Position numbers and translations under genes: made by a program. A stretch of DNA of 64,000 nucleotides from Heterodera schachtii (taxonomy: Eukaryota > Nematoda > Chromadorea > Rhabditida > Heteroderidae). The notes below the pieces were generated by a model. The model was given only the letters and a program-made list of their open reading frames with translations. It had not been told where the DNA came from and did not search any database. Below, in pieces: positions 15,114-51,008 of this stretch. How positions within the stretch are numbered: position 1 is the stretch's first letter; each line of letters starts with the position of its first letter. The stretch is taken from positions 62,834 through 126,833 of the forward strand of contig SIJG01000116.1 of assembly GCA_023374025.1 (NCBI GenBank), written 5' to 3'.

Positions 15114-16187
15114 TCAACGGGGCGAGAATCGCGCAGGTGGTTGCCGTCGGCGATCAGGGTAGCGTCGTTGTGGCGTCGGCGATTGAACGGCAGGCGTCGG
15201 CGATCGAGCGGTTTGAATGACGTCCTGCTGTTCCTCTTCGATCGGCTGTTCCTCCACTTGATCTTCGGCATTGATCGGGTCAGGCCTATTCTCTAGGACC
15301 TGCCCATTTTGGTGTCCATTTGCCATTTGTGCCATTTGAATTGGCAAATTGAATTCCTCATTCAAAATGTTTAATGGGTCCTCGACAATTTGAGTCGCCT
15401 TTCGGAATCTCAGCTGATTCGCATGATAGCGACCGCTGGATCCGTCTTCAAATCTCACATTATAGATGACACCGGAACATCCGCAGATCGTTCCGGCCTT
15501 CCAACTTTGTGAAAGGCGATGTCGGGCCCAAACTGCGTCCTTTGAACTGAAAATTTGTGGACGTGTGCCAAATCGGCGATTGAACTTCTTCTCCATTGCC
15601 TGATCACGTTCGATCGGCTGAATTGGAGGTGGCTTCAGCAGGTCCAATGTTGTTCGTGGCTTCCGTCCAATGAGCATTTCGGCTGGACTTTTCGAGTCCG
15701 GCAATGAATCGTTGGGGGTTGTTCGATACGTGATCAGAAATGTCTCAATTATTTCTTTAACTGAGGACATTCCCTCCCCTTTTAATTTTCTGAAGGCACG
15801 TTTAAACGTGTCAACAAATCTCTCCGCTTGTCCATTGGACATGGGATGATACGGAGCCGAGAACAAGTGATTGATTCCATTGGCCGCTGTAAATTTAGCA
15901 AATTCCGAGCTCTTAAATTGTGTGCCGTTATCCGAAACCAACGTTTCTGGAATTCCGTGCCGTGAAGCCAAATATCTTAGCTTTTCAATTGTCATCGCCG
16001 TTGAAATTGTTGACATTTCGAAAACCTCGGGGTATTTCGAGTAAGAGTCAACAACAATCAGAAAATATTTTCCGAAAAACGGTCCGGCAAAATCCATGTG
16101 CACGCGTTGCCACGGGCCTGATGTTTTTGGCCATGATTGTAAATTTGTCTTAATTGGCGCTTTGCAGCAGCCTGACATGGCACACAT
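15114..16187 (-). pseudogene. pol: integrase catalytic core and C-terminus
   Basis: Contains the full DD35E integrase core: Asp in VHMDFAGP, Asp in VSDNGTQF, Glu in MSNGQAERFVD, with 35 residues between the second Asp and the Glu. The C-terminal part has the FGTRPQIFSSKD and GRYHANQLRFRK segments expected of Gypsy integrases. It ends in a Pro/Arg/Glu-rich tail of low complexity, TGA stop at 15,116-15,114. The real protein would enter this frame near 16,165 from the upstream frame, so the ATG at 16,187 is probably not used. It inserts the cDNA into the genome and made the 5-bp TTTTA duplication seen here. Confidence 0.92.
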
Positions 16188-16813
16188 TCACGGACATAAT
16201 CTTCAATGTCCTGATCGATTTTTGGCCAGAAGACATATTGTCGGGCCAGCTGCTTCATCCTTTTCATGCCAGGATGTCCTTGGTGCAGCAATTTCAGAAT
16301 TTTTGAATGGAATACTTTCGGGATTACCACTCTTTCTCCAAACATGAGGCATCCCTTTTCAATTGAAAGTTCTTCCTTTCTTCGGCAAAAATCACGGACA
16401 TTTTGGTTTTCTTTGTCCATGGCCTTTTCGTTTGGCCAGCCATTTTTGACAAATATTTTGACTTGAACAATATTTTCATCACGCTCAGAAGCAGCGACGA
16501 GGTCCGAAAATTTTAATGGCAATTTTGAAATTGTGTTGCCGAAATTTGTCTCAAAATCTGTTTCCGCGTTGATCATGGCGATGATTTTCTCGTCTTCGGG
16601 CTCATTTCCTTTGGCGATGAGGCGCGAGAGCGCATCCGCCTGGCCAAAATCCTTTGTGTTGATGTATTCGATGCTAAAATCATAGGCCAAAAGGATTAAT
16701 GACCACCGAAGAAGACGATTGGCACTGCACTGCCGAATTCCCTTTTTGCTGCCAAAAATACTAACAAGGGGTTTATGGTCAGTTTGCAGAGTGAAATGCC
16801 GTCCATAAATCAT
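16166..16813 (-). pseudogene. pol: RNase H second part and integrase zinc domain
   Basis: Frame shifted by one missing base relative to the preceding part. It opens with the RNase H segment containing LQTDHKPL (a catalytic Asp) and the terminal ADALSR motif. A linker follows, then the N-terminal zinc-binding region of integrase (LLHQGHPGMKRMKQLARQYV, later CVPC). The open frame itself runs on to 16,058, but its similarity to integrase ends near 16,165, where a second single-base loss (CAAAAG read as CAAAG) moves the protein into the next frame. The last 36 or so residues of the ORF are therefore shadow sequence. Confidence 0.9.
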
Positions 16814-18291
16814 TTATGGAATTTTTGTACGGCAAAAATCAACGCCAAGCCCTCTTTTTCGATCTGCGAATAATTTTTTTCCGCAGGGGCGAGTGATTTT
16901 GAAGCATGGGCAATTGCTTTGATGTTTCCGTCCTGAAATTTGTGATAAATGACTGCTCCGATGCCCAATTCGGAAGCGTCAGCTGCAACAATGATCTCCA
17001 TTTTGGGATCATAATGTGTTAGCAGCAAATCTGATGCCAAAATTTCCTTAATTTTTCGGAATGCATTTTCGCATCCTTCACTCCAACTCCAATCAATTTC
17101 CTTTTTAAGCAAATCGTCGAGCGGTTTTCGAATGAACCGCATGTTTTTGACGTATTGTTGATAATGGTTTACCATACCAAGGAATGATCGGAGCGATGGA
17201 ATGTCGTTTGGTGCAGGCATTTGACTAATTGCATAAATTTTTGCTGGATCCGGTCGGCGTCCGTTTTTATCAATTATCTGTCCGAGATATTTGATTTGAT
17301 CTCGGAAAAATTTACATTTTGCCAATTTGACGCGGAATCCGTATGCCTGAATTCTTCCAAAAACTTCTTTTAAGTGATTGGTATGTTCCGAAATGTTTTT
17401 GCTGACGATTATAATGTCGTCCAAATAGGCAGTGGCAAATTCCAATCCTGCCAACATTTTATCCATAATCGATTGAAATATGGCTGGGGCTGATTTGACA
17501 CCGAACGGCAGTCTTTCCATCCGGTAATTGCCCTTGTGGGTTGCCAAGTCACACAAATTTTTGGAATCTTCGTCCAATTCGACTTGGAAATAGGCGTCCC
17601 GCAGATCGATTTGCGAGAAAATTTTGCCTCCATTTAGCGTCGCAAAAATGTCTTCCGGTATTGGAAGCGGGTATTGGCAGTCGAGAAGGGCATCGTTTAA
17701 GCCTGTAGAGTAATCAATGCAAAGTCGGGCGGATCCGTCGGCCTTTTTGACAATTAGAATAGGCGCGGCCCACTCCAAATGTTCGACTTTGTGGATGACG
17801 TTCATCTGTTCCAATCGGCTCAGTTCGCGCTCAACAACCTCTAACGAATTGTAGGGTACTGGACGAGCTTTGCGGTATACTGGCCTTGCGTCATCTTTTA
17901 GGGTGAGATGAGCCTTCTCCTTTAAGCAATGGCCCAATTTTTCACTGAAAATTTCGTGGAATTCCTTTTCCAGGGCTTGAATTTCGGCTTCTGTCCCAGC
18001 AATCTGCGTTGCTTCACTTGGGATCAAATTTTCAGCCTTTTTGCCATTTGTGAGGCATGTATTTACTGTAGGATTGTTGATTTTCGACTTTAATTCGTCC
18101 AACAATCCAAATAAGTCCATCATTTTGCAGCTCAACAAATTTAGTGAGCCTGCTTTGGCAACATAAAATGTTTGCTCCACTTCAATTTTGCCAAATTTGA
18201 ATGTGCCGAATCCTTTTCCAATAAAGGAAATTTTTGTGCCGTCGAATGCTTTGCCAATTTCGTTGCATTTTTCGATTGGTGGTCGTCCAAC
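16810..18291 (-). pseudogene. pol: protease remainder, reverse transcriptase, RNase H first part
   Basis: Continues in the gag frame after the protease TAG. The first 37 codons complete the protease. Reverse transcriptase follows, with the palm aspartate in FSQIDLRDAYFQ and the YLDD box (AYLDDIIIVS, about 17,420), then the thumb and connection sequence (SFLGMVNHYQQYV). RNase H starts with its first Asp at DASELGIGAVIY and its Glu region KNYSQIEKEGLAL. The frame stops at TGA (16,812-16,810) in the middle of RNase H. The protein continues in another frame directly after, consistent with loss of one A from an A run (AAAAT read as AAAT). The enzyme copies element RNA into DNA in cytoplasmic particles. 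As written it cannot be made in one piece. Confidence 0.92.
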
Positions 18292-19431
18292 CTACTCGTG
18301 CGTCAATTCATCAATGACGACAATGTCCGAGCCGGTGTCGAGATGGAATTCGACTGGCTTCTTGTTGAACAGAACCGCTGTTTTCAGCAGTGAAATGGAA
18401 TTGACGGCATGGGTGGTCATTCCAATGCGAAGATGGCCAACACGGTTGTTGCCTTTCTTTTTGGCATTTTGGCGTTTGCGCCACTCTTGGACTCGTTCGC
18501 ACTGTTTATCCAAATGGCCAACAAACTCACACTTCCGGCATTTGCTCGTTTTGTAACGGCATTCGTCAGGTCGATGCACGCCGAAGCCGCACCGCCAACA
18601 TATCATGGTTGCCTGCGTGTTGGTCCGTTGATTGGAAAAATTCTTGTAGGATTTGTTGGGTGAATTGTTCGGCTTTGGAACTTGTCGAACTGCATTCACT
18701 GGCCTCGAAGAACTTGTCGCTTCGATGGCCTTTGCTTCTGAAATTGTGGACTGGAAACTTATTAAGTCTTCCACCACTCCATCATAGCTGATGTTGGAGC
18801 TATCTGCTGCCAATTTTGTCAGAATTCGCTGTCGCAATGCAGCTTCATTGGGCGCTTTGAGTGCCATCAATAACATGAGGCAATTAAATTGCTCTTTGGT
18901 CAGCTCATCGAATTTAAAATCGGTCAGCAATTTTCTGTGCCGATTTATGAACTGCCTGAATTGTTCGCCTTCTCCTCTCACCGCTTTTAAGCACTCATAG
19001 CGGTCGATGAATATGGACTGAGTCTTGGCAAATAGCTTCTCGAGCTTTTCGGTCGTCACTTTAAAATCGAAATCGGTGACCGACGACGGCAGAACTGATC
19101 TGCTGTACTCGCTGAATGCTGACTCGCTCAGCTTATTCATCAAACATTTGACCTTGACTTCGTCGTTAGCTGTTGGTGCCGTGCAATCCAACGCGAATTT
19201 GAATCTCTCAATCCATTCCGAAATTCGGCTCTTGTCGTCCGTTGGCTCGAATGGTGAGATGTCCGGCAATATTGGCACTGAATTTGCTCCTTGATTGGGC
19301 TATGCCGCCGCATTTGGTGCGTTTTGTCGGATCGCAATCAATTGAGCAATTTGCTGTGATTGGTCCTGCACCATTTTTTGTTGGTCCGCCAGCATTTTCA
19401 CTAGCTGGTCAATTGTCGGATTTTGCGCCAT
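18292..19431 (-). pseudogene. gag plus start of protease, with two in-frame TAG stops
   Basis: Structural (capsid and nucleocapsid) part of the Gypsy polyprotein. The best start is the ATG at 19,431-19,429. The frame then runs MAQNPTIDQLVK... to a TAG at codon 44 (19,302-19,300), and continues in the same frame through the capsid-like region. Two zinc knuckles of type CX2CX4HX4C follow (about 18,600-18,500; cores CWRCGFGVHRPDEC and CRKCEFVGHLDKQC), then the beginning of the aspartic protease with FHLDTGSD (Asp-Thr-Gly at about 18,339-18,331). A second TAG at 18,294-18,292 falls inside the protease domain, about 15 codons after that motif. A stop inside protease is not where programmed readthrough normally sits, so mutation is more likely. 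Both stops are one C-to-T change from CAG (Gln). Confidence 0.88.
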
Positions 19432-36117: not shown

Positions 36118-36231
36118 CTACTGACCAATTTGTGCCCAATCCAAAGTCTCGGGGAGTCGTATTGTGAATTTTGATGTGCTGTTCCCCTGCCCCGGTGTGT
36201 TCGAGGGTAGTACAATGTAAAAGTCATCCAT
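36118..36231 (-). pseudogene. Penton-like minor capsid protein, N-terminal fragment
   Basis: Starts at ATG 36,231-36,229, overlapping the end of integrase (its TGA is at 36,226-36,224). It reads MDDFYIVLPSNTPGQ and then NSTSKFTIRLPETLDW before TAG at 36,120-36,118. The pattern FY(I/V)xLPSN ... N-T-x-x-x-F-T-x-x-L-P-x-x-(I/L)-D is the usual opening of the Polinton/adintovirus penton-like minor capsid protein, which normally runs to several hundred residues. After the stop nothing similar follows and the sequence falls into the AT-rich flank. The gene is therefore cut by a deletion or by the element border. A TATA-like ATATTTTATA lies 22-33 bp before the ATG. Family assignment rests on a short match. 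Confidence 0.55.
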
Positions 36232-37177
36232 CTGTTTTCACCAATTCTTGGTTATAAAATATACCTTTTATTAAATTTCCTTCCAAGTCTTCAATCCTGT
36301 ATGACTCGGGTGTCGTTGGATTAACAACAACGATTTTAAACAATTCTTCAGTAAAGTTTGGGAGATATCCCTTTGCAAATTTCCCCTTTTCTTTTGTAAT
36401 ACGAACTATATCACCAATTTTAAATCGTTTATTTTTCGAAATTTTAAATTCCTTCTCCTTATATAATTTTTCCCAGAGCGCACGGGCATTTTCAAAATTA
36501 ATTGAAGACGGTTTGACTCCCAATGTCCTATTCACACTGTTGTTAATGTTTATTATTATTTTGTCAATTACATCGACCCATCTTAGAGTGTTCTTCTTTG
36601 TAAAGTATCTATAAAGCCGTTCCTTTATTGTTCGATTTGCCCTTTCAACGACTCCAGCATGCAGATCGGGGCTATACATTACATTTTTGATGATAAATTT
36701 TTCCTCAAAATATTTTTTCATTTTTACCGCCTGAAACTCTAAACCGCTGTCACTATATATTTTCATCGGGATAATTTTTGACTTTTCGAACACCCGATCA
36801 AAAGCCTCGATCATGTCATCACTCTTCTTTGACTTGGCCGGTGCACTGAAGATCATTCGACTCAGCACGTCGATGCATACCAACAGATACTTGTAACCGT
36901 CGTTATGCTTTTTCAACTGGTCAAATATGCACAAATCGCACTGCCAATCGGTATGGAAGCCGCTCGGTATTGTCTTTAATCTCGGGAATCTTTTCCTTAT
37001 GGGCTTGTGAATCGTGTATGTTCTCTGCTTTTCTAGGAATTTATTTACATCTTCACTCGTGATTTCCGGGTCAATCTTTTTGGCCTCATTTAAAATTTTT
37101 TGAATTCCAGCAAAACTTGCCGGAGATTTTAAATTAAAATAAATTTTTGATAAAATTTTCTCTACAGTCTTGCCCAT
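36224..37177 (-). CDS. Maverick/Polinton integrase
   Basis: Retroviral-type integrase that would insert the element DNA. ATG at 37,177 gives 317 residues and overlaps the upstream gene by only 16 bp. An in-frame ATG at 37,261 would add 28 residues but overlaps by 100 bp, so I prefer the shorter form. Numbered from the preferred start, the N-terminal domain has SPASFAGIQKIL and YTIHKPIRKRFPR, as in the C. elegans F54H12.3 family. The catalytic triad is Asp81 (DWQCDL), Asp143 (YSDSGLEF) and Glu178 (VVERANR). The C-terminal SH3-like part has FKIGDIVRITKEKGKFAKGY. All three acidic residues are present and the length is normal, so the enzyme looks intact. The start of the penton-like gene overlaps its stop. 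A TATAAAAA box lies 44-51 bp before the ATG, inside the upstream gene. Confidence 0.93.
   Translation of the reverse strand: MGKTVEKILSKIYFNLKSPASFAGIQKILNEAKKIDPEITSEDVNKFLEKQRTYTIHKPIRKRFPRLKTIPSGFHTDWQCDLCIFDQLKKHNDGYKYLLVCIDVLSRMIFSAPAKSKKSDDMIEAFDRVFEKSKIIPMKIYSDSGLEFQAVKMKKYFEEKFIIKNVMYSPDLHAGVVERANRTIKERLYRYFTKKNTLRWVDVIDKIIININNSVNRTLGVKPSSINFENARALWEKLYKEKEFKISKNKRFKIGDIVRITKEKGKFAKGYLPNFTEELFKIVVVNPTTPESYRIEDLEGNLIKGIFYNQELVKTDG
36253..36264 (-). promoter_or_regulatory. TATA-like box of the penton-like gene
   Basis: The word GGTATATTTTATAACC (36,251-36,266) reads TATATTTTATAA on the minus strand, 22-33 bp before the ATG at 36,231, inside the end of integrase. Confidence 0.45.
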
Positions 37178-37968
37178 ATTAGTGGTTTGAAGGGTTTCTT
37201 CTCTCGTGTTATGCCGGGTGTTTTTATAGATTTGGTTGCCTTTTTCCTTCCACGTCCCCACATAACCCTTGATTTATCAACTATATCTTTTACTGTTGGA
37301 TCCTTCAGTAACCGATCTTTAAGAAATTTTGCACCGCGGGGCGTTTCATCTTTCTTCCCCGCGAGATACACCAAAACATCTCTGTAATTACTGTTTTCGA
37401 TCGGTAAATTCATGTTCGACTGTACCTTTCCAGCCGCGGTAATTTTAAATAAATCTTTGTTGTCTTTTACGTACCTAAAAAGGTCATTTAAAAGGGTCGG
37501 GTGTATAATAGACGGTTTCATCGGAACGGGTGTTTTGAGTGTGGGTGTTATTTGGGGCTCCGGAGTTAACTCCTCAAGTGTATCATTATCGGATTCGGAA
37601 TAAGGAGTTTGCTCTTTAAGTCTTTTCCTAGGAATAATTATTTTCCGTGGTTCATCAGTCTTCTGTGCTTTGGATTGAGTGTTGAGGCCAAGATATGGTG
37701 CAACGTTTGGACCGGGTCCATGATTCTCAATCACCACCTTCTGTGGTCTATTTTCAAGCATCCCCTTTACCGTACGTCTTTTTTTATAGAGCCAATCGTG
37801 CCTCTTCGCCTTGAGGTCCTCGTTTATGCCGGGGTCTTGTAAATTCTAAGAAATCTTTGCGTCTAAACTTGCTTTTTCATTTTGGAGATAATCACCACTA
37901 TTCATCGCACTTCGCAGAGCCAAATATTCTGCCTCGGGAATCATTAACATTTTCTTTGCAAATTTCAT
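37162..37968 (-). pseudogene. Conserved Polinton protein with one in-frame TAG
   Basis: ATG at 37,968-37,966 overlaps the TGA of the preceding gene as ATGA. Forty codons (MKFAKKMLMIPEAEYLALRS...) are followed by TAG at 37,848-37,846. The same frame then stays open for 227 codons to TAG at 37,164-37,162. The post-stop part holds DPGINEDLKAKRHDWLYKKR, an acidic/Pro-rich stretch (SESDNDTLEELTPEPQ), and SNYRDVLVYLAGKKDETPRG, then a basic tail. A KK-M-(V/L)-(V/I)-P-x-E start, an early 'DPxLxxExKAKxY' region and a late 'GSNIxDLIxxL.RK...P.G' region recur in a Polinton protein of unknown function, and this layout fits. An internal ATG at 37,761 could restart the protein (199 aa). Readthrough, restart or loss of function all remain possible. 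Confidence 0.6.
37221..37228 (-). promoter_or_regulatory. TATA-like box of the integrase gene
   Basis: Minus strand TATAAAAA, 44-51 bp before the preferred integrase ATG at 37,177. It also favours that start over the one at 37,261, which lies upstream of the box. Confidence 0.5.
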
Positions 37969-38315
37969 GATGTTATTTTTTCTAATAAATGTTGGGCTAA
38001 TACACTAAGCACCGGGATCAAAATAGCTCCCAGGGCTATACCACTACCCTGCTGTATCCTTTTTCTTGCTGTTTTCTCTGAACGTGATTTGGCAATTTCT
38101 CGATAGAAATCGGCGAATAGTGCCAACCTTCTTTTTTGTTTGTTCGTGAGTTTAAAATTAAAACTCAATATATTTGCACAAATTTCAACGATTGTTAAAA
38201 TTTGGTCAGCTGTAGCGTTTTCGATTAATTCGTTCTTCTTTTGTTCTGATCTGAGGAAGGCAAGCTTCTTTAGGAACGCTGTATTCTCCTTCACTTCGGA
38301 GCTAAATTTATACAT
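37965..38315 (-). CDS. Small basic Polinton/adintovirus protein (116 aa)
   Basis: 116 residues: an N-terminal helical part (AFLKKLAFLRSEQKKNELIE), then ATADQILTIVEICANILSFN, the basic motif LTNKQKRRLALFADFYREIA, an Arg/Lys stretch (SRSEKTARKRIQQG) and a hydrophobic Gly/Ala/Leu/Ile end (GSGIALGAILIPVLSVLA). This order, including 'L(T/S)xxQKxxL' and the terminal hydrophobic patch after a basic Gln-Gly word, is typical of a small protein found in most Polintons and adintoviruses. It is thought to be a virion component, with no agreed function. It starts 33 bp after the ATPase gene and overlaps the next gene by four bases (ATGA). A TATATAAG box lies 26-33 bp before its ATG, across the ATPase stop codon. 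Confidence 0.8.
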   Translation of the reverse strand: MYKFSSEVKENTAFLKKLAFLRSEQKKNELIENATADQILTIVEICANILSFNFKLTNKQKRRLALFADFYREIAKSRSEKTARKRIQQGSGIALGAILIPVLSVLAQHLLEKITS

Positions 38316-38340: not shown

Positions 38341-38348
38341 CTTATATA
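38341..38348 (-). promoter_or_regulatory. TATA box of the small basic protein gene
   Basis: Minus strand TATATAAG, 26-33 bp before the ATG at 38,315, directly following the ATPase stop codon. Confidence 0.6.
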
Positions 38349-38963
38349 CTATTCAATTGGTAAATAAATTTCCAGAGTTTCATCGGGAAAAATTTTGCTA
38401 CATAATCTGAATTCCTCATCAGAATTTGGATGCATGTTAATCATGAGATAACTAAATTGATTGTTGGTCGCATCGTGATATGCGTCCATGAAATAATTCA
38501 ATCTTTTAGGGAACAGTTGTGACCCCAGTGTTCTCACTTGCAATTGTCCAGAAGGGTTGCGCATTAATACCAGATAATGTGCGTTGGCTCTTGCCGTTTT
38601 AATGTCCCGGCCATAGAGACTCTGGGTTACAAAAATTACACTTACGTTCCAGTTATGGGAGCCCCTGGTAAAGAGTATATCGAGGAAAGTATTCTGCATG
38701 TTAAGCATTAAATCGTCAAGTATGAGTAACAGGGGTTTTTCCTGTTCTTTAATCTTATTCATGTCCGGAATCCCGTTAAAAGTCTCAACGCCATCCCCGA
38801 TTAATCCTAAAATACTATCATTCATCTCACCGTAACAATAAAGAATTTTGTTGGGTGATGGTTCAATTAAATTCTTATGATGTTTTAAAAACCGTAATAG
38901 CCAACGGGTCTTACCACTCCCGGTAGCCCCCGAGAGAATCAGAGTGAACGGGCCGCGAAACAT
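38349..38963 (-). CDS. A32/FtsK-like DNA-packaging ATPase
   Basis: 204 residues, normal length for a Polinton packaging ATPase, which pumps the element genome into the capsid. Walker A is GATGSGKT at residues 12-19, only 11 residues from the start, as usual for the family. Walker B is LLLILDDLM (Asp83, Asp84). The family signature FTRGSHNWNVSVIFVTQSLY follows at residues 98-117, with the TQ sensor, and then MRNPSG. No break is seen. ATG at 38,963 is 12 bp beyond the stop of the zinc-ribbon gene. A TATAAATA box lies 27-34 bp before it, within the end of that gene. TAG is the stop. Together with the integrase it identifies the element. Confidence 0.95.
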   Translation of the reverse strand: MFRGPFTLILSGATGSGKTRWLLRFLKHHKNLIEPSPNKILYCYGEMNDSILGLIGDGVETFNGIPDMNKIKEQEKPLLLILDDLMLNMQNTFLDILFTRGSHNWNVSVIFVTQSLYGRDIKTARANAHYLVLMRNPSGQLQVRTLGSQLFPKRLNYFMDAYHDATNNQFSYLMINMHPNSDEEFRLCSKIFPDETLEIYLPIE

Positions 38964-38975
38964 TTTTAATGCCTC

Positions 38976-39155
38976 TTATTTATTTGATCTATTTATATTT
39001 TCATAGGGAACATGTTTCGCGCATTTGGGGCATAGCCAGAAATTATCAAAAAATGATGTACCGAAATGCAAAAGACTGTGTTTTTTACATCTGTTACAAA
39101 TCTCGTAATGACAGGGACAGTAATGACAACATTTAATTTTATGTGGGCAGTTCAT
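38976..39155 (-). CDS. Cys-rich zinc-ribbon protein (59 aa)
   Basis: A 59-codon gene from ATG (39,155) to TAA (38,976). It has nine Cys and six His. Three CX2C pairs are seen: Cys10-Cys13, Cys20-Cys23 and Cys42-Cys45. The last two form CX2CX18CX2C, the spacing of a zinc ribbon. Protein begins MNCPHKIKCCHYCPCHYEIC and has FWLCPKCAKH near the end. Small zinc proteins are common in large DNA viruses and Polintons, but I do not recognise this one. It is transcribed away from the TBP gene, 91 bp apart, with its own TATAAATA box. Because zinc ribbons of this kind occur in TFIIB-like transcription factors, a partner role for TBP is conceivable; that is speculation. Fold and zinc binding are inferred only from Cys spacing. 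Confidence 0.75.
   Translation of the reverse strand: MNCPHKIKCCHYCPCHYEICNRCKKHSLLHFGTSFFDNFWLCPKCAKHVPYENINRSNK
38990..38997 (-). promoter_or_regulatory. TATA box of the ATPase gene
   Basis: Minus strand TATAAATA, 27-34 bp before the ATG at 38,963, lying within the last codons of the zinc-ribbon gene. Confidence 0.6.
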
Positions 39156-39184: not shown

Positions 39185-39192
39185 TATTTATA
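39185..39192 (-). promoter_or_regulatory. TATA box of the zinc-ribbon gene
   Basis: Minus strand TATAAATA, 30-37 bp before the ATG at 39,155. Implies a very short 5' leader. Confidence 0.65.
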
Positions 39193-39199
39193 GAAAGGG

Positions 39200-39207
39200 T
39201 ATATAAA
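39200..39207 (+). promoter_or_regulatory. TATA box of the TBP gene
   Basis: TATATAAA followed by GGGG, 40-47 bp before the TBP ATG. It is a near-consensus TATA box in the 91-bp divergent promoter, so the protein may act on its own gene (inference). Confidence 0.7.
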
Positions 39208-39246: not shown

Positions 39247-39795
39247 ATGCAAAAACCGATTGTCGTAAATATAATTGCTCTCGCTAATCTCGGTACCGAG
39301 ATTAAACTAAACTCTCTGACGATCACCGAATGCCAATTTAATTATAACCCAAGAAAATTCAATGCCGCAGTTATCAAATGTGCAAGCCCCATCAAAGCCA
39401 CCGCGTTACTATGGGAATCCGGGAAAATGATATGTCTGGGGACGAAAAGTCTGATAGACTGTGAAAATGCTATAAAAACTTTTATAGAAATAATTAAGGG
39501 CTCTGGGTGTCCTAAGGCATCTTACGCAGGACACACTGTTGAAAATATTGTTTCGACCTTTAAATTCGGACATGAAATTGAACTGAATGAATTCAGAAAA
39601 AATCGTCGTGCCTTTTATGAACCAGAAATATTTTGCGGTTTAAATTTCAAGAGGGGTAAAAGCATGACTGCATTAATTTTCTGGACCGGTAAAGTCGTAA
39701 TTACCGGAACAAAAAACAATTCTGAAATTGACGAAATGTATCATTATATACTTCCATATTTGAAAATTGCTCAAAAGAATTTAAAGAGACGCTAA
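39247..39795 (+). CDS. Element-encoded TATA-box-binding protein (TBP)
   Basis: 182 residues, the length of the TBP core saddle, in one intronless frame. Both direct-repeat halves are visible. First half: VVNIIALANLGTEIKL, FNYNPRKFNAAVIKC, TALLWESGKMICLGTKS. Second half: VENIVSTFKFGHEIEL, RAFYEPEIFCGLNF, TALIFWTGKVVITGTK, then YHYILPYL. Residues that in yeast TBP contact or kink the TATA box are largely kept: Asn8 and Asn100 (yeast Asn69/Asn159), Phe38, Phe129 and Phe145 (yeast Phe99, Phe190, Phe207), Thr153 (yeast Thr215). Two differ in the first half: Trp56 replaces Phe116 and Leu64 replaces Thr124. A Trp at this place also occurs, from memory, in the TBP-like factor TLF/TRF2, but the NPRKF and YEPEIF words are TBP-like. 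It shares a 91-bp divergent promoter with the zinc-ribbon gene. It is strongly diverged from host TBP, so not a recent host copy. Confidence 0.93.
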   Translation: MQKPIVVNIIALANLGTEIKLNSLTITECQFNYNPRKFNAAVIKCASPIKATALLWESGKMICLGTKSLIDCENAIKTFIEIIKGSGCPKASYAGHTVENIVSTFKFGHEIELNEFRKNRRAFYEPEIFCGLNFKRGKSMTALIFWTGKVVITGTKNNSEIDEMYHYILPYLKIAQKNLKRR

Positions 39796-39859
39796 AAATT
39801 CCTTTTATTGGGACGGTCCCCCTATTTTATGGATTGATTGTGTTATCGTTACTTCGTGT

Positions 39860-40122
39860 AGAGGTGCATCGGCGGGGAGGGTGTTGGATGCTACTATTGA
39901 TTTTTTATTGCGCGACTCGGCATCGGTGGGAGTGTGGGCAGTGTCATTATTGATTATTTTTATCGATTAATTTACGCGACTCAGCATCGGCGGGGAGGGC
40001 GGGCAGTGTCATTATTTTACGCGGCGGTGCATCGGCGGGAGGGATGGGCAAAAAAAAAAGCACCCGTGCGGATTTGGGGAAATCGAATTTGGGTTGCGGA
40101 TTTGGGGAAATTGGATTTGGGT
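39860..40122. repeat. GC-rich short tandem repeats beside the TBP gene
   Basis: Four copies of a GCATCGG(C/T)GGG(G)AG word at 39,866, 39,920, 39,984 and 40,029, three of them preceded or followed by ACGCGACTC or GGGCAGTGTCATTATT. Then two copies of CGGATTTGGGGAAAT at about 40,069 and 40,098. ORFs across this are repeat products. Together with the next array it may be the terminal region of the Maverick. Confidence 0.75.
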
Positions 40123-40450
40123 GGGCGGCAACTTCAAAGTGGTCCAATAGGTTTTGGTTCTGGGCGGCAACTTCAAAGTGGTCCAATAGGTTTGGGTTCG
40201 TTGGGCGGCGACTTCAAAGTGGTCTAATAGGTTCGGGTTTGTTGTGCGGCAACATCAAAGGGCAGCACCCCTCCCATAGGCACGGGTTCGTTGGGCGGCG
40301 ACTTCAAAAAAATGCACGCCTCCAATAGGCACGGGTTCGTTCCGGGGCGGCGACATCAAAGGGATGCATCCCTTCAATAGGCACGGGTTCGTTCCGGGGC
40401 GGCGACTTCAAAGGGATGCACCCCTCCCATAGGCACGGGTTTGTGCGGGA
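40123..40450. repeat. Seven tandem GGGCGGC(A/G)AC(T/A)TCAAAG units
   Basis: Units start at 40,123, 40,162, 40,203, 40,244, 40,293, 40,345 and 40,397. The period grows from 39-41 bp to 49-52 bp because the later units gain a GGGATGCACCCCTCC-like insert. Each ends with (C)AATAGG...GGGTTCGTT. Maverick termini often contain tandem repeats, so this may mark the right end. Confidence 0.85.
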
Positions 40451-40745
40451 AACGCCCGTGCGAAACGTGCGCTTTAGGGGTCATATACTACTACAAGCAG
40501 TAGCTGGGCGGCGGGAATTGGGCGGCGTGCGCATCGACCTTTGGGTGCACTTCTTACACTCGGTGCCGCTTTTCAAAAAAGTGTTGCACCATTTCGACCA
40601 CACGCAAGCACGTGGGCCAACGATTTTTTAGGGGTCACCCGCCCCTCGGGGTTTGCTGTGGTCATTTCGAGGGTGGCCGCGTATTACCCGCCAAGAATAC
40701 CCCCCCTTATACTACTTCTGTTGCTGGGCTCTATACACAAATAAA
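40451..40745. other. GC-rich non-coding flank of the Maverick
   Basis: GC-rich unique sequence with no convincing ORF. The base composition drops abruptly to AT-rich after about 40,745, so this is a reasonable right border. I could not find a matching inverted copy at the left side. Confidence 0.5.
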
Positions 40746-50083: not shown

Positions 50084-51008
50084 GTGATGAGACATTTGCG
50101 CCGCGCCATTTGCGCCGCACAGCAAAAATGGACATTTGCGCCGCCCAGCAAAGTCGACACTTGCGCCGCGTCATTTGCGCCGCAGACTGTTGCGCCGCGG
50201 ATATTTGCGCCGCTCCATTTGCGCCGCGACATTTGCGCCGCCCAGCAAAAATGGACTTTTGCGCCGCGCTGTCAAAAATATTATTTTCATTAAAGTTAAC
50301 CACTATTATCAATAAGTTTTAATAAAACTAAAACCAACGGCAAAAATAACAAATTGAAAATTGCAAAAAATTATTAGTCACAAAGATTGACATTCAATTA
50401 AAAGAATTGCTGTTAGAAAACCCAATTATTTTTTTGCTTCAAAAAGAAAAATTCAATTTTTCCATAATTAATTTGCTCAATAAGATATTTACATCAATTT
50501 TGATTTAATTTTATTGAAAAAAGAACCGATAATTTTCAAATTTTCGCTCCTATTTTACCATTTTTCGCATTATTTCGCAATTTTATGTCCTTATTTAAGT
50601 ACCTATTTTGATTTTTTTTTTTCGCCCTAAAATTCGCGGCTTGATGATCAAACAATACGAAGGCTTGTTATCCCATACGATCACAATGAAAACGAAAATG
50701 ATAAAGATTTGATCAATCATTACCTGACTTCAATATGGAATTGACATGAAAGGCTTCGAAGAAGGAATTAATAATGAATATCAAGCAATTCTTATTCAAT
50801 AAAACACCTAAATTTATTTTAATGAGAGCGAAAATGTCTTTTTTTGCTGTACGGCGCAAATGTCGCGGCGCAAATGTCGCTTTTGTTAAGCGGCGCAAGT
50901 GTCGCGGCGCAAATGTCCGCGGCGCAAGAGTCTATTTTGCTGAGCGGCGCAAGTGTCGCGGCGCAAATGGCGCGGCGCAAATGTCCGCGGCGCAAAAGTC
51001 GGCTAACC
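50084..51008. mobile_element. Foldback (long-TIR) element with 10-bp target duplication
   Basis: 925 bp flanked by the direct repeat GTAATAAACC (50,074-50,083 and 51,009-51,018). The left arm (50,092-50,275) is a tandem array of (A)CATTTGCGCCGC units. The right arm (50,833-51,005) is the inverted array GCGGCGCAAATGTC. Both arms also carry a CCCAGCAAAAATGGAC or GCTGAGCGG/TTTGCTG variant. A 557-bp AT-rich centre has no ORF with a known domain. A 9-11 bp duplication is characteristic of Mutator-like (MULE) and some foldback transposons, so this is probably a non-autonomous relative moved by a transposase encoded elsewhere. An empty paralogous site supports it. Confidence 0.8.

Follow-up and report, generated by a model that had tools for sequence, protein, structure and literature searches.

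The locus described here raises the question of whether a Maverick (Polinton) element can encode its own TATA-box-binding protein (TBP), as the initial annotation had proposed for an open reading frame (ORF) in the nematode Heterodera schachtii. The ORF lies at 39247-39795 of a stretch of 64,000 nucleotides of contig SIJG01000116.1 (hereafter, the window; coordinates without a locus name refer to it). Many large DNA viruses of eukaryotes have small relatives in the Mavericks. The evidence collected below identifies the ORF as a TBP gene carried by a family of Maverick elements.

Sequence and predicted structure of the TBP

The ORF runs as a single uninterrupted frame of 182 codons from ATG to stop, and the Pfam TBP family matches two stretches of it (E 5.5e-38). 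In the PDB, the closest sequence is that of human TBP (E 2.4e-24). An AlphaFold2 model reached a pLDDT of 92.8 with a 30-row alignment (45.9 with three rows), and in Foldseek alignments this model has query TM-scores of about 0.85-0.89 and identities of 32-33% with human and yeast TBP; the comparison with the TBP saddle recommended by the initial annotation thus gave a TM-score of about 0.88 to the human protein. The protein is two TBP lobes in one chain with a predicted saddle fold, and ORF, Pfam match and predicted structure together confirm the intact, intronless 182-residue core with both halves that had been claimed. A viral structure library yielded 59 matches to the model at E 0.001; the best 50 of the 59, annotated giant-virus TBPs among them, are 6-21% identical to it, compared with 32-33% for human and yeast TBP.

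Residues are given in the numbering of yeast TBP, which was placed on the window protein by motif. The earlier statement that most DNA-contact residues are retained holds, with nine kept (F99, F190, F207, N69, N159, L114, L205, V161 and T215) and three changed (F116 to Trp, T124 to Leu and V71 to Ile). Three of the four DNA-kinking phenylalanines are therefore present, the fourth being Trp, and the asparagine pair is kept. Trp116, Leu124 and Ile71 could weaken binding to TATA. Both TFIIB-contact glutamates are present, and the first-lobe lysine positions at about 138 and 145 are altered.

Organization of the window copy

The features of the window copy are as follows.

36077: left truncation point of the copy, from comparison with other copies
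36224-37261, minus strand: rve-type integrase (PF00665, 4.7e-9)
37162-37845, minus strand: basic ORF with an in-frame stop in the window copy, no Pfam match
37965-38315, minus strand: 116-aa ORF, role unassigned; homologue in another copy without Pfam match
38342-38349, minus strand: TATA box upstream of the 116-aa ORF
38349-38963, minus strand: packaging-type ATPase, 204 aa (Pox_A32, PF04665, 5.7e-8; Adeno_IVa2, 1.8e-5)
38976-39155, minus strand: Cys-rich 59-aa ORF, no Pfam match
38992-38999, minus strand: TATA box upstream of the ATPase
39185-39192, minus strand: divergent TATA-like box upstream of the Cys-rich ORF
39200-39207, plus strand: TATA box TATATAAA upstream of the TBP gene
39247-39795, plus strand: TBP gene of the element, 182 aa, no intron (PF00352)
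39836-40492: GC-rich right terminal repeat region, from blastn ends against other copies, end motif and repeats

The neighbours are those originally claimed, namely an rve integrase and an A32/IVa2-like ATPase, both with Pfam matches, and a small basic ORF, which has 268 aa in other copies. The spacing of 91 bp is borne out as well, and the ORF nearest to the TBP ORF is the divergent Cys-rich one. On the right, the element terminates in TATACTACT (40484-40492). About 3.75 kb of the window (36077 to about 39835) is common to most copies at 91-99%, in some of them in pieces. Leftward of 36077, a position inside the gene for a minor-capsid-like protein of complete copies, 11 of the 12 other intact copies carry one common sequence that is missing from the window, and the window copy is therefore truncated.

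Other repetitive DNA occurs in the window. A second TATACTACT end motif at 40708-40716 lies in a GC-rich stretch (40493-40740) that is probably a remnant of another Maverick end. A retroelement at 15114-19278 on the minus strand, in several frames, contains reverse transcriptase, RNase H, integrase zinc-binding and rve domains, with a GC content of about 43% against about 21% in its surroundings. Inverted arrays of GGCGCAAATG-type repeats, with arms of up to 69 bp and approximately 90% complementarity, occupy 50091-51003.

Full-length elements

Ten-kilobase regions surrounding the 12 other intact copies and one stop-bearing copy (C82) were compared with the window, and two copies, on contigs C16 and C2, were read out to both ends. 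The C16 copy measures 16,750 bp, with inverted repeats that align over 699 bp at 99% and a 6-bp target duplication (TCTGGT); in the C2 copy, of 14,680 bp, the inverted repeats align piecewise, over 109 bp at 95% and over 149 bp at 88%, and the 6-bp duplication is TTTATA. Both elements start with AGTAGTATA, and AGTAGT-ended inverted repeats are found in both. The C2 copy encodes a family B DNA polymerase (PolB; PF03175, 2.7e-12, over the cut-off), a part missing from the window copy and distributed, through introns or decay, over several ORFs in the full-length copy, and an rve integrase (PF00665, 2.4e-9). An adenain-like protease is matched in the C16 copy, a member of the window family, just under the cut-off (5.5e-4) and over the cut-off in a second group of elements, M2, described below (PF00770, 7.8e-6). 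Two ORFs of 423 and 432 aa occupy the usual place of capsid genes, a position that suggests a capsid role; neither has a Pfam match, and the 423-aa ORF has no PDB match. Each full-length copy has one broken gene (a major-capsid-like frame in C2 and the integrase in C16). PHROGs gave no match for six proteins.

These features are those of Mavericks/Polintons, that is, PolB, rve integrase, A32-like ATPase and adenain-like protease in elements of 14.7-16.75 kb here, with long inverted repeats ending in (AGT)2 and 6-bp target duplications. Features of this group are described in passages of PMC8097293 and PMC4028283, the former reporting (AGT)2 ends and 6-bp duplications for vertebrate Mavericks. 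The present elements additionally contain a TBP and a PAZ-domain ORF; the eight core genes named in the relevant passage of PMC8097293 include neither TBP nor any other transcription factor. The TBP is the last gene in the full-length elements and faces outward, with the ATPase cluster on one side and the right inverted repeat on the other. The proposal of a Maverick encoding its own TBP stands on this location, inside full-length elements bounded by inverted repeats and 6-bp duplications.

Copy number, distribution, and selection

Thirteen full-length open TBP copies, the window copy included, occur in the 178.5-Mb assembly at 92-100% identity, which argues against a chance ORF. The pooled pN/pS of the TBP is 0.131 (78 pairs among the 13 copies), indicating purifying selection; that of the ATPase is 0.077 (10 copies, the three others of the 13 being L041, with a shortened ATPase, and L040 and L046, which the anchor missed). 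The family-wide selection on the TBP supports the long residence in the element that had been suggested.

All 18 ATPase loci of the window family, which include a degraded ATPase (C44, 77%) assigned by hand, have a TBP within 12 kb. The corresponding counts are 0 of 19 in the sister family closest to it (ATPases 60-81% identical, two short fragments included), 20 of 57 in a group of 42-55% identity, where one of the 20 (C2:993806) merely adjoins a window-family copy, and 0 of 16 in the most distant group. These analyses used 111 of 126 ATPase rows and 87 of 89 PAZ rows, the remaining rows (15 for the ATPase) being second pieces of loci already listed. Two sister elements (L060, 433-789, minus strand; L061) contain, beyond the Cys-rich ORF and in the place of the TBP, an acidic ORF of 115-118 aa, without a Pfam match in the L060 copy and followed in one of the two elements by GC-rich repeats. 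With a different ORF in this position, the right end seems to be an exchangeable slot.

Other TBPs in the genome and their origin

A search of the genome with the Pfam TBP family gave 97 rows, which were grouped into 52 loci. For 39 of these, a Maverick-type ATPase or PAZ match is found no more than 12 kb away, so that the neighbour listing called for by the initial annotation shows homologues adjoining Maverick genes, rather than host genes only. Eight of the 13 remaining loci are pieces or lone copies of the window family. Also outside the 39, a PAZ piece is visible at C13:727759, of which C36:552563 is a relative, and C84 has a PAZ remnant. The host TBP (C2:2091479) is a separate gene split by introns, and C29 is read as the host TLF, likewise a separate, intron-containing gene. 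TLF/TRF2 resembles the element TBP in being a divergent TBP paralogue of animals; the host TLF differs from the window TBP in lacking most DNA-contact residues and in its introns.

Identity to the window TBP amounts to 34% for host TBP and 25% for host TLF, values that argue against a recent copy of either gene. A recent retrocopy of host TBP or TLF was considered and rejected, with identity, introns and selection all speaking against it.

The Maverick TBPs form three groups, M1 (the window family), M2 and M3. The M2 TBP and a PAZ-domain ORF stand tail to tail next to the protease, and the M3 TBP follows the PAZ ORF on the same strand. Beyond the M3 TBP, a PolB-like end is found at two loci, L054 and L057, assigned by motif and mutual likeness, the L054 piece having no Pfam match. 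One M2 TBP (L010) is letter-identical to an annotated Heterodera trifolii protein (P0004). Relatives of the M3 TBP occur in H. trifolii, H. schachtii, Globodera pallida, Meloidogyne enterolobii and M. hapla (among the best 120 of 336 proteins), those of the other species being proteins or gene models alone, some of which also contain a PAZ piece. Public models from Heterodera, Globodera and Meloidogyne (P0047, P0151 and P0177) have PAZ and TBP pieces in one protein; such fused models are probably two adjoining ORFs joined by annotation. Being a joined model, P0151 has first-lobe columns that cannot be relied on.

A tree was built from 51 hand-picked rows, the metagenome rows among them that bear the M3 label having received it on similarity alone. 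M1 and M2 form a group in this tree at 79/78, which is not a firm branch, and they separate in a tree without M3 and TLF; the TLF and M1 branches are very long. Neither a single clade of all Maverick TBPs (p 0.539) nor a grouping of M1 with nematode TBP (AU p 0.455) is rejected. The proposed tree with host TBP and TLF is compatible with an old origin from nematode TBP. The three positions of the TBP within the element suggest repeated gain or relocation, between which the trees do not decide. Scans of viral contigs with the window TBP and with profiles of Maverick TBPs, PAZ and cellular TBPs gave nothing confirmed; these are weak negatives, because the cellular-TBP profile also missed all known viral TBPs.

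Putative promoter boxes of the M1, M3, and sister elements

The TATA box upstream of the TBP gene (forward TATAWAW) and the divergent TATA-like box of the Cys-rich ORF are present in 13 of 13 M1 copies, and the former may serve as the promoter of the TBP gene. Among the copies with located starts, TATA boxes precede the ATPase by 34-35 nt (11/11), the 116-aa ORF by 32-33 nt (9/9) and the capsid-like ORF by 32-35 nt (6/6), in each case out of 13 copies. TATAWAW is found within 60 nt upstream of 8 of the 13 M1 ORFs examined, and five have neither this motif nor TATTTAA, which precedes none of the 13. Half of the 14 TATAWAWR matches in 8.56 kb of M1 pieces lie 33-51 nt before an ORF start, the other seven elsewhere. 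In M3, the divergent PAZ and ATPase ORFs have a common TATATATA-type box (loci L063-L065). In the sister elements, which have no TBP, TATA boxes likewise precede the ATPase and the Cys-rich ORF, and host TBP can thus probably serve such promoters.

TATTTAA boxes of the M2 elements

Several M2 genes are preceded by GTATTTAA boxes, and the M2 TBP gene is preceded by TATA. The motif GTATTTAAR occurs five times, both strands together, in 8.55 kb of M2 DNA (L062 and L009 1-2150), at the following positions.

L062: 407, 3278 and 5446
L009: 110 and 966

All five boxes lie 39-53 nt upstream of the start of a same-strand ORF, the ORFs being the ATPase, minor-capsid-like, pVI-like, TM and PAZ ones; the number expected in the 11 upstream pieces tested is 0.07. 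Of 11 M2 ORFs, six have TATTTAA, one (the TBP gene only) has TATA and four have neither, although one of the six motifs (ORF123, 12 nt upstream) is probably coding sequence. Box use differs between M2 and M1 with a Fisher p of 0.0014, for a motif chosen post hoc. In other M2 copies, TATTTAA is found before PAZ in five of five, two of which also contain TATAWAW close to the ATG, and before TM in four of four; TATA precedes the TBP in five of six, one of which (C192) also has TATTTAA. As these copies are homologous, they show conservation and are not independent cases.

The M2 TBPs deviate from host TBP at Phe99, Leu114 and Leu205, of which position 205 is also changed in a yeast altered-specificity TBP. 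By analogy, the GTATTTAAR boxes look like the TATTWAA promoter class; beta- and gammaherpesvirus late promoters carry TATTWAA and are read by a viral TBP mimic, according to passages of PMC12529657. The M2 elements would resemble the KSHV ORF24 system in pairing a TBP with TATTTAA boxes, which the M2 TBP may read. M1 elements differ from the herpesvirus late system in using TATA. KSHV ORF24 itself is described in the same passages as lacking TFIIB-contact residues and as acting with five other viral proteins.

PAZ-domain ORF

A stand-alone PAZ-domain ORF is present in these Mavericks at the following places.

L053, 8250-8594, minus strand
L009, 1006-1488, plus strand

Further PAZ pieces are found in L056, L057 and L058. 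The match to PF02170 has an E-value of 3.5e-10 in M2; in the window family it is 3.1e-6 and falls just short of the cut-off. The ORF is similar to the domain of Argonaute that binds RNA ends and could be a suppressor of RNA interference. Among open-licence papers, none of the listed matches on PAZ contains the term PAZ domain.

Possible roles of the element TBP

Probably, although with moderate confidence, the element TBP directs host RNA polymerase II to the TATA-box promoters of the element itself. The TBP gene would be transcribed from its own conserved TATA box, and the saddle-fold protein would then bind the TATA boxes that precede the ATPase, capsid-like, PAZ and other ORFs by 33-51 nt. 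Host TFIIB and polymerase II would be recruited through the two glutamates that presumably contact TFIIB, and the altered lysine positions of the first lobe may free the protein from regulators of host TBP. Under this scheme, the element would be independent of the limiting and regulated host TFIID. The M2 elements would take this scheme further, with a TATA-driven TBP gene whose product would read the GTATTTAA boxes of other genes. Several observations speak against the promoter role, namely the TATA boxes of the sister elements that lack a TBP, the five of 13 M1 ORFs with neither box, the seven of 14 TATAWAWR matches that do not precede an ORF start, the three changed DNA-contact residues and the lack of a TFIIB match among the scanned element ORFs.

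Giant and other large DNA viruses provide a close likeness, a virus-encoded, two-lobed TBP. Passages of PMC7221094 describe viral TBPs as keeping DNA contacts and changing regulator contacts; on this reading, the same combination in the window TBP fits a promoter-acting TBP that evades host regulators. The passages add that most of the viruses encoding a TBP encode TFIIB as well. Pfam scans of element ORFs revealed no TFIIB domain, and the window TBP, in contrast to many viral TBPs, retains both TFIIB-contact glutamates.

An unlikely alternative is that the protein is an antagonist, which competes with host TBP or titrates TFIIB and thereby damps host transcription or defence genes. Kept TFIIB-contact glutamates together with changed DNA-contact residues would allow a partly defective competitor, and the same elements carry the PAZ-domain ORF, a possible counter-defence gene. 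However, most DNA-contact residues are retained, and a pure competitor would not explain why a distinct motif before several M2 genes coincides with the M2 TBP. It is less likely still that the TBP is cargo from a host genome, retained without much use to the element; the exchangeable end slot, with another ORF in the sister family, and the absence of the TBP from two ATPase groups would suit such a history, but the low pN/pS over 13 copies and the occurrence of TBPs of three groups at three element positions argue against it. A domesticated or duplicated host gene in many copies, as the public naming of several as TATA-box-binding proteins might suggest, is very improbable, since the copies either adjoin element genes or lie inside elements that have inverted repeats and are flanked by target duplications, and host TBP and TLF are separate, intron-containing genes.

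Returning to the promoter-acting TBP, a broader and tentative proposal can be made from the three groups. Nematode Mavericks may have gained TBP repeatedly and evolved promoter systems of their own; in M2, an early, TATA-driven TBP would read a late TATTTAA class comprising packaging, minor-capsid-like and PAZ genes, independently of the beta- and gammaherpesviruses, and PAZ may shield the element from RNA interference.

Relation to previous reports and significance

In agreement with the initial annotation, which knew of no report of a Maverick TBP, none was found among the listed matches of full-text searches of open-licence papers. The match that combines Mavericks, Polintons and TATA-binding protein deals with vertebrate transposons, no paper links nematode Mavericks of Meloidogyne to TATA, and in a broader search on TBP none of the listed papers contains the words Maverick or Polinton. 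Judged by title and start of abstract, the listed matches on nematode Mavericks contain no Maverick TBP, and those on Mavericks and the TATA box are unrelated. In the passages of the Polinton literature that mention TBP, it belongs to giant or algal viruses. No Maverick TBP is among the listed matches on Mavericks and Heterodera, one of which, PMC11118728, mentions Maverick once, as a widespread superfamily.

Some of these TBPs are named TATA-box-binding proteins in public nematode annotation, a naming that can mislead gene-family studies. That an element of 15-17 kb spends one gene on a TBP hints at promoter recognition as a limiting step for it in the animal nucleus, and the comparison of the three lineages offers a ready experiment on the joint change of TBP specificity and promoter sequence.
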